Assembly: GCF_030758955.1 (NCBI RefSeq)
Contig: NZ_CP132360.1
Location: 325,467 to 389,466 of the forward strand
Length of the DNA: 64,000 nt
Reading direction: 5' to 3'
From: Agrococcus beijingensis
GTDB taxonomy: Bacteria > Actinomycetota > Actinomycetes > Actinomycetales > Microbacteriaceae
The notes beneath the pieces were generated by a model, which did no database searches, was not told where the DNA came from, and saw only the letters and a program-made list of their open reading frames with translations. This document shows, piece after piece, positions 52,329 through 58,489 of this stretch. Made by a program: the position numbers and the translations under genes. The first letter of the stretch is position 1. Each line of letters starts with the position of its first letter.

Positions 52329-52354
52329 TATCTGGTTGCTCCGAGAGCAGCTGA

Positions 52355-52430
52355 GGGTCTGTGGCGCAGCTGGTAGCGCACCTGCATGGCATGCAGGGGG
52401 TCGGGAGTTCGAGTCTCCCCAGATCCACCA
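52355..52430 (+). tRNA. tRNA-Ala (anticodon GGC)
   Basis: The acceptor stem GGGTCTG pairs with CAGATCC. The D arm is GCGCAGCTGGTAGCGC, the anticodon stem CCTGC/GCAGG holds loop ATGGCAT with anticodon GGC, and the T arm has GGGAGTTCGAGTCTCCC. The CCA end is encoded. It decodes GCC. It probably contains the attachment site of the adjacent integrative element. Confidence 0.95.
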
Positions 52431-52456
52431 AAACCCCCGTCTGACCGGGGGTTTTT
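52430..52456 (+). terminator. Rho-independent terminator of tRNA-Ala
   Basis: AAAACCCCCG pairs with CGGGGGTTTT around a TCTGAC loop and ends in five T residues. It begins at the last base of the tRNA CCA. Confidence 0.85.
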
Positions 52457-52635
52457 CGGTAGGGCGTCCGGTTCCACTTGCGCGTGGCAGCGCGAACCGG
52501 CCAAGTTACTCGGGTCCGCCGCGGCGGGGTGTCTGGCGTGTCCCGGTGTGCCCCGTCTGCCCCCTGCGACTCCCGAGCACTCCCAAGGTTGGCCGGATCG
52601 GCCCGTTTCGCACCGCCTATGTCGTTAGCGTGACG
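52457..52635. other. Gap between tRNA and excisionase-like gene
   Basis: These 179 bases contain no supportable gene. They would hold integrase arm-binding sites and the xis-int promoter; the short block CCACTTGCGCGTGG with its surroundings is the only dyad I notice. Confidence 0.35.
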
Positions 52636-52866
52636 ATGAACGACATCCCAGTCAGCGGAGCCGACCCCGTGCGAACCGACCTCTTCGGGTATCCGCCCGG
52701 CGTCCTGCTCACCGAGCGGGAGCTCGCCGCGGCGATCCACATGAGCAGCAAGACCCTGCAGCACTGGCGCTACACCCAGCAGGGGCCGCCATTCGTCCGG
52801 CTCGGCCGGCACGTGCGGTACCGCGTCAGCGACGTCACCGAGTGGATCGAGCGCAACCGTGGCTAG
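52636..52866 (+). CDS. Excisionase-type helix-turn-helix protein
   Basis: This is a 76-residue DNA-binding protein. LLTERELAAAIHMSSKTLQHWRYTQQGPPFVRLGRHVRYRVSDVTEWI is the MerR/excisionase-like HTH_17 fold. It sits between the tRNA and the integrase and overlaps the integrase start by eight bases, so it is a likely recombination directionality factor. The ATG at 52636 is preceded by an in-frame GTG two codons earlier that could also serve. Confidence 0.8.
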   Translation: MNDIPVSGADPVRTDLFGYPPGVLLTERELAAAIHMSSKTLQHWRYTQQGPPFVRLGRHVRYRVSDVTEWIERNRG

Positions 52867-54049
52867 GCCGCCGCTGCCGCCCGGTTCCTGGGGCGCCGTG
52901 CGCTACTACCCGCAGCCGAACGGCCGGGTGCTCGCCCGTAGCCGCTACCGCGATCACGCGGGCAACTACCACCCGCTCCGCGCCACCGCGGAGACGGCGG
53001 AGGCGGCCGAGCGGCTGCTGAAGTCCCGCGCCGCGGTCGGCGTGCGCGACGGCGCCTGGATCACGCTCGACTCCCGGGTGACGCAGCTGGCCAAGTGGTG
53101 GCTCGCGGGGCTCGAACTCGCCGGCCGCCTGCAGCCCGGCACGCTGGAGAACTACGCGTTGGACGCCCGGCACACCGCGGACGTCTTCGGGAATCTGCGG
53201 CTGCGCGAGCTGACCGTGCTGGTGGTCGACTCGGTGCTGCTCGAGCTGGCGGGCACCGATCCGCGGCTCGCGTACCGCGTCCACGGCACCCTGCGGCGCA
53301 TGTGCGCAGACGCGGCGCGCGTGGGCGTGCTCACGTCGAACCCGGTCGAGCACGTCCCCGCCCCCCAGGTGCCGACGTCGACGCCGTACACGCTCAACCC
53401 GGAGCAGGCGGAGTACCTGCGGCTCTTCCTCGCCCGCTGGCTGGCCGAGCGCGCCAAGCCCGGCCCCCGCCCGGACGCGCGGATCGTGCCGATGGTGGAC
53501 ATCCTGCTCGCTACCGGCATCCGGATCGGCGAGCTGCTCGCGCTGCGCCAGCGGGACATCGACCTGGAAGGCAGGCCGCCGACGCTGCTGGTCGGCGCGA
53601 CGCTGATCGAGGACGCCCGGGGCGGGCCGCAGTGGCAGGACCACCCCAAGGCGAAGGGCCAGCGGCGGCGCCTCGTCCTCCCGGCGCTGGCCGTCGACGC
53701 GCTGGCGCCGCTGCTGACCCCTGAGGACCCCGACCGACCGGTCTTCCCGAACCGCAAGGGTGCCTGGACCCGCCCGAACCACGTCGAACGCATCCTCCGG
53801 TCCTTCGCGGCCGAGTCGGGCGGCCGGCTCCGGTCGATGGGCATCGACCCCGACGAGGTGACCCCGCACCTCTTCCGTCGCACGCTCGCCACCATGATTG
53901 CCAACGAGGCGAACGTCGACCGCGCCAAGGAGCAGCTCGGGCACGCGTCCCGATCGACCACCGAGCGCCACTACATCACCCCGCCCGACGTGGTGGGAGC
54001 CTCCGCGGCGCAGATCGTCGATCGCCACTTCGGTGCCAATCGCCGCTGA
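52859..54049 (+). CDS. Tyrosine-type site-specific integrase
   Basis: This is a 396-residue phage-type integrase. The N-terminal arm-binding region is followed by a SAM-like core domain (about 60-160) and the catalytic domain. The catalytic residues are visible: Arg in LLATGIRIGELLAL, His-x-x-Arg in TPHLFRRTLATM, His in LGHASRSTTERHY and the nucleophile Tyr in that last block. It appears intact. Placement beside tRNA-Ala indicates integration at the tRNA 3' end. Confidence 0.92.
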   Translation: MARPPLPPGSWGAVRYYPQPNGRVLARSRYRDHAGNYHPLRATAETAEAAERLLKSRAAVGVRDGAWITLDSRVTQLAKWWLAGLELAGRLQPGTLENYALDARHTADVFGNLRLRELTVLVVDSVLLELAGTDPRLAYRVHGTLRRMCADAARVGVLTSNPVEHVPAPQVPTSTPYTLNPEQAEYLRLFLARWLAERAKPGPRPDARIVPMVDILLATGIRIGELLALRQRDIDLEGRPPTLLVGATLIEDARGGPQWQDHPKAKGQRRRLVLPALAVDALAPLLTPEDPDRPVFPNRKGAWTRPNHVERILRSFAAESGGRLRSMGIDPDEVTPHLFRRTLATMIANEANVDRAKEQLGHASRSTTERHYITPPDVVGASAAQIVDRHFGANRR

Positions 54050-54075: not shown

Positions 54076-54870
54076 CTACGCGTCGGCGAGGAACCCGGCC
54101 AGGCATGGGATCGACAGCGCGTGATGGAGGTCGTTGTCGGTGAACCGCCGGCGATGCGGCAGCTCCGCGTCTCGCAGGCCGGTCAAGGCGTCGTAGCGGC
54201 CCTCTCCCACGTCCCCGGCGCGAATCTCCCGGACGGCAGCGCTCGCCGCTTCCTTCCGTTTCGCGAGCAGCAGGCGCCGAAGGAGGGCACCACAGTCGCC
54301 GCTGCGGTAGCGGCGGGTGCCGTCCTCCAACAGCACGAGGCCGCACATCGCCCGGGCGCCGGCGTCGCGATCGCCCCCGAGCAGCAGCCGGAAGGCGGCC
54401 GGCACGCGGCTGACCACCCATTGCACGGGGACGGCATCCAGCTCCGCGCCGCCGGCCAGGACCGGCAGCGCCTCAGCGAATGCCCGCGCATGCTCCGGCA
54501 GCATCGCCGCGTCGTAGAGCGCCAGCAGATCGCCCGGATGCGCGGCGGCCATACCTTCCAGCCGCTCCGACCAGGCCAGCCCGACCGCGCCCCACAAGTA
54601 CTCACGCTCCCCGAACTCCTCGGCACGTCCGAGCTGCAGCAGGTGCCCGGCGGCGTCCCTCCCGCGCGTGATCAGCGAACGCGTGGCAGTGGTCACATCG
54701 GTGCCCGCCGCGACGTCCTCCAGCCACGTCGGCAGTCCCGACTGCTCGAGGTTGAGCGTCTCGCGGCGGAGCCGGATAGACGCCCCGGACCGGGCCTGGA
54801 CGTCTTCGGCGAGATCCAGGAGTTCGCGGTAGTGGGCGCGAGGCCCTGCGCCCGTTCGGCCGGCGCGCAA
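54076..54870 (-). CDS. Uncharacterised protein, or 3' half of a split gene
   Basis: This frame of 264 codons has no ATG or GTG near its beginning. The first possible start is a TTG at 54870, directly after the TGA that ends the upstream 163-codon ORF in the same frame. The sequence is helical and leucine-rich (LLDLAEDVQARSG, GREYLW-like EREYLWGAVGLAW, AFRLLLGGDRDAGARAM). No domain is recognised. Either a single older gene is interrupted by the TGA or this is re-initiated translation. Confidence 0.55.
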   Translation of the reverse strand: MRAGRTGAGPRAHYRELLDLAEDVQARSGASIRLRRETLNLEQSGLPTWLEDVAAGTDVTTATRSLITRGRDAAGHLLQLGRAEEFGEREYLWGAVGLAWSERLEGMAAAHPGDLLALYDAAMLPEHARAFAEALPVLAGGAELDAVPVQWVVSRVPAAFRLLLGGDRDAGARAMCGLVLLEDGTRRYRSGDCGALLRRLLLAKRKEAASAAVREIRAGDVGEGRYDALTGLRDAELPHRRRFTDNDLHHALSIPCLAGFLADA

Positions 54871-55362
54871 TCAGGCGGCGACTGCCGCGATCGCCATGCT
54901 GCGATCGCCGATCTGCATATTCGTGATCACGGCGGCCGCGCTCGCGTGTCGGCTGGCTTGCACCTGGCGCCAAGGCCCTTCAAGCGCCAAGCGGTCTTCC
55001 GGCTCGAGGTCCCGACGGTCCAGGCCGAAATCGACCCGCCGCAGGGGGTCCAACGGTCGTTCGCCGAGAGCGACCCGGATACTCGTCAGGGCAACCGCGT
55101 CGCGTTCAGTTTCGAGCCAGCGTGCCGCGTGGACGTACCTGCCGATGCGCCCCTGCGGCTCGCAGTGCGGGCGCGGCGGCAGATGTGCTGTGGCAAACGC
55201 GCCGCTAGCCGGTTGCTCGAAGTGTTCGATCGAGAGTTGCGACCTGCGAAGCGTCGGACAGGTCGGGTCGCCGTGCAGGGTGTACCCGTGCGCGGAGCGA
55301 TAGAACGGCACCTTCGTGCCGGCGAGGGGACCCAGCGGGATCTCGACTTCTGGCGCGGGCAT
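54871..55362 (-). CDS. Uncharacterised protein, possibly 5' half of a split gene
   Basis: This is 163 codons starting MPAPEVEIPLGPLAGTKVPFY. The first third has YTLHGDPTCPTLRRS and later PHCEPQGRIGRYVHAARWLETE, so two cysteines and three histidines could bind metal. A TATGTT box (55374-55369) ends six bases before the ATG, suggesting leaderless expression, divergent from the SIR2 gene. The frame continues beyond its TGA for another 264 codons. Confidence 0.6.
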   Translation of the reverse strand: MPAPEVEIPLGPLAGTKVPFYRSAHGYTLHGDPTCPTLRRSQLSIEHFEQPASGAFATAHLPPRPHCEPQGRIGRYVHAARWLETERDAVALTSIRVALGERPLDPLRRVDFGLDRRDLEPEDRLALEGPWRQVQASRHASAAAVITNMQIGDRSMAIAAVAA

Positions 55363-55529: not shown

Positions 55530-55550
55530 ATGACTGCGGTGGCGCAATGA
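55530..55550 (+). CDS. Six-codon leader ORF (MTAVAQ) coupled to the SIR2 gene
   Basis: ATG ACT GCG GTG GCG CAA TGA begins six bases after a -10 box, and its TGA overlaps the SIR2 gene ATG (ATGA at 55547-55550) in a different frame. Ribosomes loading on the leaderless 5' end would translate it and re-initiate on the effector. This is a sequence-based proposal. Confidence 0.45.
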   Translation: MTAVAQ

Positions 55551-58489
55551 CGGCTCTTGACCGGCTCCGGAGAGCGCTCGCGCGTGGAGAAGTCGTGATT
55601 GTGACGGGGACAGGTGTCAGCATGGCTGTCAGCCCGGATCGGCCGGAGCTCAGCTGGATAGGGTTGCTAACCGACGGCGTGCAACGGATTGCGGAGCGAA
55701 ACGCGCCGCGCGCGAATCTGCTGCGCCAGGAGCTTGAAATGGCTTCTTCGGCCGAAGACCTTGCGACAGTGGCCGCGGCCGTCAAGCGGCATCTCGCAGC
55801 TGACTTCCCCCGCTGGATCTCACAGTCCTTAGGTGACATTGAGCCGGTGCACACGCGTTTGGCCAAGGCGATCGCAGGTCTTGATTCACCCATACTCACG
55901 ACGAACTATGACACTCTGCTGGAGACGTCCCTGGGGCGGGATTCGGTGAGCTGGGCAAACCCCACGCTCATGCGGGACGTGGTGCGCAATGCCCGGAAGA
56001 GCATCGGACATCTCCATGGTGTCTGGTCGGATTCCACGTCCCTGGTGTTCTCCACCGAGGACTACGACGCGCTCTTGCGGCAAGACGGCGCCCAGGACAT
56101 CCAGTCGAGCGCTTTCAACATGAAGACCTTCCTGTTCGTTGGCGTGGGTGCAGGCGTGGAGGATCCCAATTTCAGCCCGATGGTCGAGGCATTCGGGAGG
56201 CACTTCCACTCGAGCGACGGCGCGCACTTCCGTCTATGCCGCGACTCAGAAGTTGACAGTGCCACCGAGCTCTCGGTGGTCGCGGACGTCGGCTATGGCG
56301 CGGACCACGGCGACCTGGCGGGCTTCCTTGAGAGTCTTGCAGCTAGTGTCGTCCCTGATCGCTCAAGCGAGATTCAGGCGCGGGCACGCGACGTCTTGCT
56401 GGACCAGCTGCGCGACAACTCTGCCCTCTGGCGCGACAACGAGGCCATACTCGCTGGTGGGCTTGCTGACCTGGTGGTTGAGCCGATCTTCCTCCCCGCG
56501 CCACACGACCAGTTTGTCAACGACTCGGCGCTCGACGACTCTGCTGGGGCATTGTCGGAGCCGTTTGAGGCAGACGAACTCATCGATCAGGGTGGGATTC
56601 TGCTGGTTGCTGGCGAAACGAGTTCGGGCGTAACCACGGCGTTGATCTGGTTGCTCGATCGGGCGTCCGACCGGTTGCAGCATCCGCCGATTCTCGTGGA
56701 CAAGCCCCACGCGGCGGGGCACCACCCGGTCAAGCGGGTTGTTGACCGCTCCCTCAAGGGCTGGGACGCCGAGGGGGACTCGTCCAGCCCTGTGATCCTG
56801 GGCGTCGACAACCTGCGGCGCGAGCCCGCAAGAACCTATGAGCGTGCTCTCAGCGATATCCAGCAGCTCGACGCCCCGCTGAAAGTGATCGGGGTGCAGC
56901 AAGAGGATGCCTTAGAGATTGCAGCGGCGCTCCAGGCAACAGACGATGGCGTCGAGATTCGCATCGCGTTTCTCGGACGATTCAGCGATCGCGAAGCACG
57001 AGCGATTGCGCTCCGCATCGCTCCCGCGAAGGGGGAAGCGATCGCGCAAGCCGCTATGGAAATGGTGCGCACTAGGAACCTGCCCCGAACCCCGGTAACG
57101 ATCACCCTGGTCGTCGAACTGCTTGCGGCCGGGATCGCGATCGAGGAGGGCGATACCGACAGCTGGGTGCTGAGCAAGTATCTGGACCTCCTGCTTGACA
57201 AGCACCTGCCGTCCTCGTCGCCTCAGACTCCGATGCTGATCCGGAACAAGCGCGTCGCAATGGAGGATATTGCGGCAGGGTTCGTAGAGAAGCGAACGGA
57301 CTCGGCGAGCCGGGAGCTGCTGTTCAAGAGGCTAGAAGGCCTGTTTGCCAGATTAGGCTGGAACTACGATCCAGGCGACCTGCTGGACGAACTGATCGCA
57401 CGCCACGTCCTGAAGCGTCTCCCGGATGGCAACATCAGTTTCCAGCGTTCGGCCTATCTGGAACTTTCCGCAGGGATGGCAGCCCGAAAGAACGACGCCT
57501 TGCGTCAAGCCATGCTGCAGCACCCCATCGAGATGGCGTCCATCGTCCGAAGCTACGTCGCGATGACTCGCAGTGACGAGGCGATGCTGGAAGTGATGGA
57601 GCGGGAACTGGACAGGATCTTCAACGAGAAGTTGACGGGTCGGATCTTCGCAAGCGTGAAACAGCAGCCGGGGCGCAAGGAGTTGTTCGCCGACCGAGGG
57701 GAGCCAGAGGACAGGGAGCAAGAAGACCGGGAGTTTCCGCGCGAAGGACTCATGTACGACGCCTCCGATGATTCTGACACCCCCGCGTTCCTGCAGGGCC
57801 ACCTCGATGAGTTGTCAGGGGGTCGGCTTGCAATGCTGGTGGTCGATCTCGCGTCGCGAGTCCTGCGTGACTCGGATGAGGTGCCGAATCAAGAGTTGAA
57901 ACAACGGGTCCTGACCAAGCTGCTCCACTGCTGGGCCGTATTCACCGACCTTTATGAAGCCGACTTGCGCGAGCTGCCAAACCTCGACGAGACAGTTGCC
58001 AGGTTGCACCCCAAGGATGATCCGACGACCGAGCAGATCGAGGACCTGAAGACGGCGCTCGTCAGCATCGTGCCGGCTTTCTTGACTCTCTCGGGCATGC
58101 GCGCGTGCCTAGCAGCTGCGAGCCTCCACCTCGCGCTGGAGGATGCGGAACTCGATCCGGGATCGACGGCCGAGCTGATGCGGGTGCTCGCGCTCTACTC
58201 AAGCTCCAGTCCTCGTTGGACCGCTGCTTTAAACGGGCTGGACGACCAAGCGGCCCGCACCTTCTTCGGCGCCTCATTCCTCGCGAGCCTGGCTCGCCAC
58301 ACCTTCATGGCAGATGAAGCCGTCACCGATCAGCAGCGGGATGACATCCGCGCTTTTCTGCGGCGAGTGGTTCTTCTGCGATACCGCTTCGACGGCGTAA
58401 GAGAGCGCAACGAGGCTTTGAACCGGTTCGAGCAGCGGCTCCGGCGCGACCGCTTGACGCGCAACAGGGCTCTCGCGATCGAGATGTAG
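55547..58489 (+). CDS. SIR2-domain NTPase-like protein, candidate anti-phage effector
   Basis: This is a 980-residue protein. The N-terminal SIR2-like NADase domain (about 14-270) has VVIVTGTGVSM for the Rossmann turn, LTTNYDTLLE with catalytic Asn120, GHLHGVW with His157, and FLFVGVGAGVEDPNF. A second module at about 345-500 looks like a STAND/AAA P-loop: GETSSGVTT at 356-364, with valine in place of the Walker A lysine, then PVILGVDNLRR as Walker B and FLGRFSDREA. The rest is alpha-helical with no clear repeats. Codon use is less GC-biased than in the core genes. The architecture resembles SIR2-STAND (Avs-type) and DSR-type abortive-infection proteins that deplete NAD+. The family call is good; the defence role is inferred. 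Confidence 0.82.
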   Translation: MTALDRLRRALARGEVVIVTGTGVSMAVSPDRPELSWIGLLTDGVQRIAERNAPRANLLRQELEMASSAEDLATVAAAVKRHLAADFPRWISQSLGDIEPVHTRLAKAIAGLDSPILTTNYDTLLETSLGRDSVSWANPTLMRDVVRNARKSIGHLHGVWSDSTSLVFSTEDYDALLRQDGAQDIQSSAFNMKTFLFVGVGAGVEDPNFSPMVEAFGRHFHSSDGAHFRLCRDSEVDSATELSVVADVGYGADHGDLAGFLESLAASVVPDRSSEIQARARDVLLDQLRDNSALWRDNEAILAGGLADLVVEPIFLPAPHDQFVNDSALDDSAGALSEPFEADELIDQGGILLVAGETSSGVTTALIWLLDRASDRLQHPPILVDKPHAAGHHPVKRVVDRSLKGWDAEGDSSSPVILGVDNLRREPARTYERALSDIQQLDAPLKVIGVQQEDALEIAAALQATDDGVEIRIAFLGRFSDREARAIALRIAPAKGEAIAQAAMEMVRTRNLPRTPVTITLVVELLAAGIAIEEGDTDSWVLSKYLDLLLDKHLPSSSPQTPMLIRNKRVAMEDIAAGFVEKRTDSASRELLFKRLEGLFARLGWNYDPGDLLDELIARHVLKRLPDGNISFQRSAYLELSAGMAARKNDALRQAMLQHPIEMASIVRSYVAMTRSDEAMLEVMERELDRIFNEKLTGRIFASVKQQPGRKELFADRGEPEDREQEDREFPREGLMYDASDDSDTPAFLQGHLDELSGGRLAMLVVDLASRVLRDSDEVPNQELKQRVLTKLLHCWAVFTDLYEADLRELPNLDETVARLHPKDDPTTEQIEDLKTALVSIVPAFLTLSGMRACLAAASLHLALEDAELDPGSTAELMRVLALYSSSSPRWTAALNGLDDQAARTFFGASFLASLARHTFMADEAVTDQQRDDIRAFLRRVVLLRYRFDGVRERNEALNRFEQRLRRDRLTRNRALAIEM

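Follow-up and report, generated by a model that had tools for sequence, protein, structure and literature searches.

Genes and features at the locus

The window, i.e., the whole stretch of 64,000 nucleotides that was analysed (Agrococcus beijingensis, contig NZ_CP132360.1, positions 325,467 to 389,466), contained an open frame at 55547..58489, on the forward strand like the other window features described below unless stated otherwise. The frame was uninterrupted over 980 codons and encoded a protein of 980 amino acids, in which a SIR2 domain was followed by a NACHT-like STAND module without the Walker A lysine; this assignment was based on the open frame, a match to SIR2_2 and 15 other members of the same clade. 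Upstream of the gene lay a tRNA-Ala (GGC) gene (52355..52430, found by ARAGORN), which provided the integration site of an island. The left attachment repeat (52393..52433), a direct repeat of 41 nt derived from the 3' end of the tRNA, had its right copy, with one mismatch, 23,404 bp downstream and outside the window (G000:C1:401263-401303). The tRNA was followed by an excisionase-like HTH_17 protein (52636..52866; PF12728, E = 4.8e-9 within ORF 52336-52866), the start of which was taken as the ATG at 52636 inside that longer ORF, and by the tyrosine integrase of the island (52859..54049; PF00589, E = 1.1e-15). Beyond the window, the island carried a restriction system comprising HsdM, HsdS, an Mrr-type nuclease and HsdR.

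The order trkH-tRNA was kept in four of five genus mates, where similarity to the window stopped at 52429-52458, at or just past the end of the tRNA; in the fifth, similarity stopped before the tRNA, and the stretch yielded no tRNA. After the tRNA, genus mates matched the right flank of the island over 37-50 bp only, and a clean empty site, sought in genus mates through the gene to the right of the right repeat, was not found. The G-C content of the gene was 62.3%, against 72.2% for positions 1-52354 of the window. The tRNA, the integrase and the repeat pair bore out an earlier note on this DNA, which had placed the gene in a tRNA-associated island, and the island was interpreted from these features as mobile.

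Two adjoining ORFs on the reverse strand (54076-55362) separated the integrase from the SIR2 gene and had no significant Pfam match; the first had no plasmid match, and neither was related to anything in the other loci fetched. When seven proteins of the window's island were compared with the other loci in search of a recurring partner gene, only the integrase found a relative (L028:14868-16055), which was 32% identical and lay near the Cryobacterium member of the clade.

Domain structure of the protein

The SIR2 domain, of the NADase type, occupied residues 1-270 (55547..56356). Its catalytic residues were intact as previously claimed, and were read in frame as N120 within TTNYD (55904-55906) and H157 within HLHG (56015-56017). 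SIR2_2 (PF13289) matched residues 116-241 (E = 2.2e-16), while no confident Pfam match was obtained beyond SIR2; the score against nSTAND_NTPase4 (PF24406) was 12.8 bits, below the curated cut-off of 27. PADLOC and NCBIfam matches were likewise restricted to SIR2, the sole NCBIfam exception being an insignificant match to ComGA across the P-loop region (E = 0.15).

The STAND module spanned residues 271-697 (56357..57637). The degenerate Walker A motif GETSSGVTT (residues 356-364, 56612..56638) was read directly as G356-ETSS-G361-V362-T363-T364, with V362 (56630-56632) in place of lysine, just as the earlier note had reported. The Walker B strand corresponded to residues 416-422 (56792..56812), with D421-N422 ('DN') after the strand. 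LPRTP (residues 512-516, 57080..57094), which we take to be the GxP-type motif of STAND proteins, fell where conservation of the module was highest. The remaining region (residues 698-980, 57638..58486) was predicted to be helical and is presumed, by analogy only, to be a ligand sensor; the predicted model placed helices at 758-979, with low confidence at 711-736.

In the predicted models, a strand (350-356), a loop and a helix (362-377) occupied the places of beta1, the P-loop and alpha1, and the module folded alone matched NACHT domains, with a complete NACHT arrangement in the closed state. These placements and matches favour the original description of the module as NTPase-like, and predict a P-loop NTPase fold rather than the absence of one. 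When the whole model was compared by Foldseek, the best matches were Avs5 structures; full-length TM-scores to EfAvs5 were low (0.23/0.26), so the likeness may not extend to the packing of the domains. Comparison of the module with PDB sequences gave eight weak matches up to E = 10, none of them to Avs5 or an NLR.

Membership of the clade

The clade consisted of 16 members, including the window protein, from families such as Microbacteriaceae, Micrococcaceae, Nocardiaceae, Gordoniaceae and Mycobacteriaceae, and identity to the window protein was as low as 23%. Nine of the others came from whole-protein searches. The same-family search produced some match in 11 of 398 genomes and a full-length match in eight, i.e., the genome of the window and seven others; the class search matched 6 of 396 genomes, with one full-length relative (L003); and the plasmid search matched three plasmid records, with one full-length protein on a Rhodococcus plasmid (L017). 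An alignment-based scan returned nine loci, of which six were new (L022, L023, L025-L028) and three were L013, L010 and L012 found again. One of the two patterns in that scan requires Leu at the lysine column; none of the six new proteins fitted it, so all were found through the other pattern. Among ten members scanned at E up to 0.1, SIR2_2 was detected in nine and nSTAND_NTPase4 in five.

No further full-length member was found in searches of the class (345 genomes), the order (297) or the Gordonia order (239), where the remaining matches were weak and fell within model positions 251-418, late in the module; three such rows (L031-L033) had ordinary GKT/GKS P-loops. Proteins were left out of the clade if the match concerned SIR2 only (L002, L004, L014, L015, L018, L019), the surroundings of the P-loop only (L005, L006 and L016, the last a secretion ATPase) or weakly the later module (L031-L033, L083-L087). 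A single-protein pattern scan of genome contigs gave 52 pattern matches, none related; none of 39 pattern stretches in viral contigs was related either, and phage records gave no match. A scan of 296 genomes with the PADLOC candidate PDC-S60 matched 37, mostly within the metallophosphoesterase portion at the front of the model alone, and the long proteins obtained in this way besides L003/L034 (L035, L036, L058) had no match to the module profile.

Loss of the Walker A lysine

In a MAFFT alignment the lysine column was occupied by Leu in 11 members of the clade and by Val in the other five. The identity of this column was confirmed by remote relatives, since L064 (Sphingomonas, GNRESGKTS) and L065 (Klebsiella grimontii, GVKEAGKTI) aligned there with Lys and L067 with Arg; Lys was also present in L076 (Deinococcus) and in L075, an ordinary NACHT-like protein from Calothrix. 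Neither the window protein nor 14 of its 15 fellow members (L023 being scanned by its first piece) contained a Gx4GK[ST] or Gx2GK[ST] string; the exception was L017, where GPIGKS at residue 507 fell outside the P-loop column. SIR2-NTPase proteins outside the clade included two with GK[ST] (L018, L002) and one without such a motif (L019). The metallophosphoesterase-STAND protein of Sinorhizobium meliloti (L067:4932-8153) read SPQEYGRTT, with Arg for the P-loop lysine and without the first glycine, and is interpreted from its sequence as another deviation from Walker A, distinct from that of the clade.

The altered loop was among the most conserved parts of the module. Mean pairwise identity was 0.58 for residues 356-364 against 0.30 for residues 300-715, and 17 of 379 nine-residue segments of the module (itself counted) were as conserved or more; residues 512-518 were unequalled among 387 seven-residue segments (1/387, i.e., itself). 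Given this conservation and the presence of Leu or Val in 16/16 members, the absence of lysine cannot be put down to chance, and the altered P-loop is strongly conserved, not decaying. A loop signature of E358 (14/16; Thr in the window protein), Leu/Val 362 and W368 (15/16) marked the clade, none of these residues occurring in the five outgroup rows. A tree of residues 300-715 (20 rows, midpoint root, with L075 left out) united the 16 members (100/99), and the five Val members formed one sub-clade (96/94). With the P-loop excluded from the tree, again without L075, the transition from Lys/Arg to Leu/Val was a single change; several outgroup branches were long and the program warned on their joins, leaving the outgroup order unsure. 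The pattern indicates a single, ancestral loss of the lysine.

The earlier note had also drawn attention to DN at Walker B. The dipeptide is indeed present after the strand, but it has no connection with the loss of lysine and was rejected as a sign of inactivation, because L064 and L065, which bear the lysine, also read DN.

Two explanations would retain nucleotide binding despite the altered loop. In the first, which is put forward tentatively and judged unlikely, ADP or ATP would be retained by the loop backbone, T363 and D421 as a fixed structural cofactor or slow clamp, with no rapid hydrolysis, and the switch would be slow or one-way, not free of nucleotide. Both T/S at 363 and D421 were retained in 16/16 members, leaving room for residual binding of nucleotide or Mg2+ as well as for a merely structural role, and the predicted closed NACHT arrangement and the exceptional conservation around LPRTP are consistent with a bound nucleotide. 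Set against this, the first P-loop glycine was Ala in 3/16 members, Glu 358 should repel phosphate wherever it occurs (that is, outside the window protein and one other), and in PaAvs5 replacement of either Gly362 or Lys363 with Ala abolishes immunity (PMC12931631), so that its Walker A lysine is needed. In the second explanation, another residue or another protein would supply the positive charge and NTP binding would be ordinary; this was considered highly improbable. R/K514 of LPRTP was present in 16/16 members and R/K478, a further candidate, in 13/16 including the window protein and in 0/5 outgroup rows; but R/K478 was absent from L017, L003 and L027, themselves without the lysine, and no partner gene recurred among the seven island proteins compared. 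R514 was rejected as a substitute for lysine: Arg is also found there in lysine-bearing L065 and L076, and so did not arrive with the loss.

Exchange of the front end

The catalytic Asn and His were retained in 14/14 members with a whole SIR2 domain. L003 had a metallophosphoesterase (Metallophos, E = 4.4e-12) in place of SIR2 and branched first, the SIR2 rows being grouped with support of 91/89. Outgroups L064 and L065 had a metallophosphoesterase front by annotation, and L067 by its match to the L003 front. Parsimony required two changes for three front-end states, with L022 scored as SIR2 and the L076 front labelled by eye. The front end was thus swapped while the altered module stayed, and two unrelated front ends are attached to the same module.

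Some copies do decay: in Gordonia otitidis (L022:9557-12103) about two thirds of SIR2 were gone from the front, leaving the STAND module and C-terminus in one open frame, and the Rhodococcus protein L023 was split into two frames. That the window gene is itself degrading or dead is nevertheless scarcely credible, because its copy is intact over all 980 codons and conservation of the altered loop and of the SIR2 residues extends throughout the clade to its most divergent members. Loss of function is hard to credit for a lysine-less design that is natural, conserved and accompanied by intact effectors, and here the account given before, of such a SIR2-STAND protein in a mobile island with a restriction system, was upheld.

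In the locus of the Agreia member, a separate gene (L021:7444-8703) lay just upstream on the same strand; its product, starting LAHISDTHLL, was metallophosphoesterase-like by eye and could be a second effector. On an Agrobacterium plasmid (L068:4857-10585) a metallophosphoesterase gene was directly beside genes annotated as GASH and GTPase or hypothetical, and on an Aliivibrio plasmid (L066:5998-12843) one was near genes with such annotations, with IS30 between; both gene sets resemble the conflict systems built around a GTPase that Kaur et al. described.

Genomic context of other members

In 11 of 14 loci, the family gene ranked lowest in G-C3 when called genes of at least 200 aa were compared; lower genes numbered one in L071, four in L073 and one in L028 (a home-made gene caller was used, and L023 was counted by its second piece only). 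Neighbours were tallied descriptively, as 56 genes picked by eye from 246 called, with no control set. The first 25 of 73 Pfam families included four resolvases, two TrwC relaxases and two integrases, together with AbiJ, Abi_alpha and a DNA methylase, and also PdxA, DNA polymerase III and other housekeeping genes. The first 25 of 43 PADLOC families were mostly type II methylase models, with one protein each, but also included AbiJ, TniQ and candidate systems. Contexts were interpreted from gene content as mobile or mixed; a consistent housekeeping setting, which had been raised earlier as an objection, was not observed.

These data bear on whether the protein might be a STAND regulator outside defence, e.g., a stress or developmental switch acting through NAD+ cleavage. 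Housekeeping genes do adjoin some members, but the patchy presence of the family, its low G-C3 relative to neighbours, the recombinases, integrases and relaxases among the genes picked and the restriction system within the same island make such a role improbable.

Comparison with known systems

The protein resembled Avs5 (EfAvs5, 9jap; AVAST5 filament, 9nc9; PaAvs5) in being encoded by a single gene, with an N-terminal SIR2 bearing catalytic Asn and His and a predicted central STAND NTPase fold. Where Avs5 has C-terminal sensor repeats, the C-terminus was helical in the whole-protein model. The protein differed in lacking the Walker A lysine that PaAvs5 needs, and none of its PADLOC matches was to a model named Avs5. 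The whole NACHT unit was predicted to fold like those of the animal receptors NLRP3, NLRC4 and NOD2, unlike which the protein is bacterial, has a SIR2 effector and has lost the lysine. By sequence, the best PDB match for SIR2 (55547-56356) was human FAM118B (E = 2e-14 for the single sequence and 4.1e-32 when the family profile was used), which tied for best by structure; KomC was the only other molecule matched by the single sequence, and far more weakly (1.1e-3). FAM118B, bacterial ThsA, DSR2 and KomC have the SIR2 domain in common with it, the matches ending with SIR2 and leaving the STAND module outside. PADLOC matches to Dsr1 and Dsr2 covered residues 105-201 and 116-173 only, unlike true DSR1/DSR2, and the NCBIfam Dsr2 match (residues 116-173) was far below its cut-off.

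The module was the same as that of PDC-S60 and nSTAND_NTPase4, with SIR2 in the window protein replacing the metallophosphoesterase, and without lysine. PDC-S60 (PDLC05051) represents the metallophosphoesterase branch and matched L003 (E = 1.3e-67), matched L017 (9.9e-9) and L012 (3.7e-6) in the module only, and did not match the window protein up to E = 1. The PF24406 cut-off was passed by L003 (32.7 bits), lysine-bearing L064 (41.3) and Arg-bearing L067 (43.9). Catalytically inactive STAND modules with varied N-terminal domains were described as iSTANDs by Kaur et al. (2020, PMC7159879), where they form the third component of MoxR-vWA systems and are almost wholly missing from actinobacteria; the present clade, by contrast, is actinobacterial, and no MoxR or vWA gene was present among the nine window ORFs and ten L080 ORFs scanned with Pfam, which are part of the island ORFs.

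The suggestion that this is an undescribed defence type was not supported, given that the protein shares its predicted fold with Avs5 and animal NLRs and that PADLOC already lists the metallophosphoesterase branch as candidate PDC-S60. What is known already comprises inactive STAND modules (iSTAND) and the nSTAND4/PDC-S60 family; for a SIR2-STAND clade in which every member is without the Walker A lysine, no report was found in the open-licence literature.

Proposed mechanism and significance

In the textbook picture, nucleotide exchange sets the timing of STAND and NLR receptors. The reading favoured here, with somewhat better than even confidence, is a single-gene, mobile, NLR-like abortive-infection receptor combining a SIR2 NADase, a NACHT-type STAND pseudo-NTPase and a helical sensor, in which the switch is driven by ligand and assembly. 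A role in defence, the trigger, assembly, NAD+ depletion and independence from nucleotide are steps that we infer. In the resting state, the STAND module would keep the protein closed and autoinhibited. A foreign protein, probably from phage, would bind the C-terminal region and the protein would open; opened modules would then assemble, and SIR2 assemblies would hydrolyse NAD+, stopping the infected cell. For comparison, the SIR2 of PaAvs5 hydrolyses NAD+ on infection (PMC12931631). In the absence of the phosphate-binding lysine, binding of the ligand and assembly would power the switch in place of ADP-to-ATP exchange and hydrolysis; because the lysine is essential in PaAvs5, a working version without it would need a different, still hypothetical switch.

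As to how this arose, there is slightly less than an even chance that nucleotide binding disappeared a single time, in an actinobacterial ancestor of the clade, whose members then kept working and swapping effectors. Ligand alone would open the module, and the old pocket (mostly Glu 358, Leu/Val 362 and Trp 368) would have been remodelled, either into a packing surface or to accept another ligand.

A clade without the phosphate-binding lysine, but with intact SIR2 and metallophosphoesterase effectors, constitutes a natural experiment on the need for a nucleotide switch, with its lysine-bearing relatives as natural controls for comparisons of nucleotide binding. Plant NLRs with degenerate P-loops have been described (PMC3478704), and the lysine-less clade bears on these also. 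It may show how NLR-like receptors work without the usual ATP switch.
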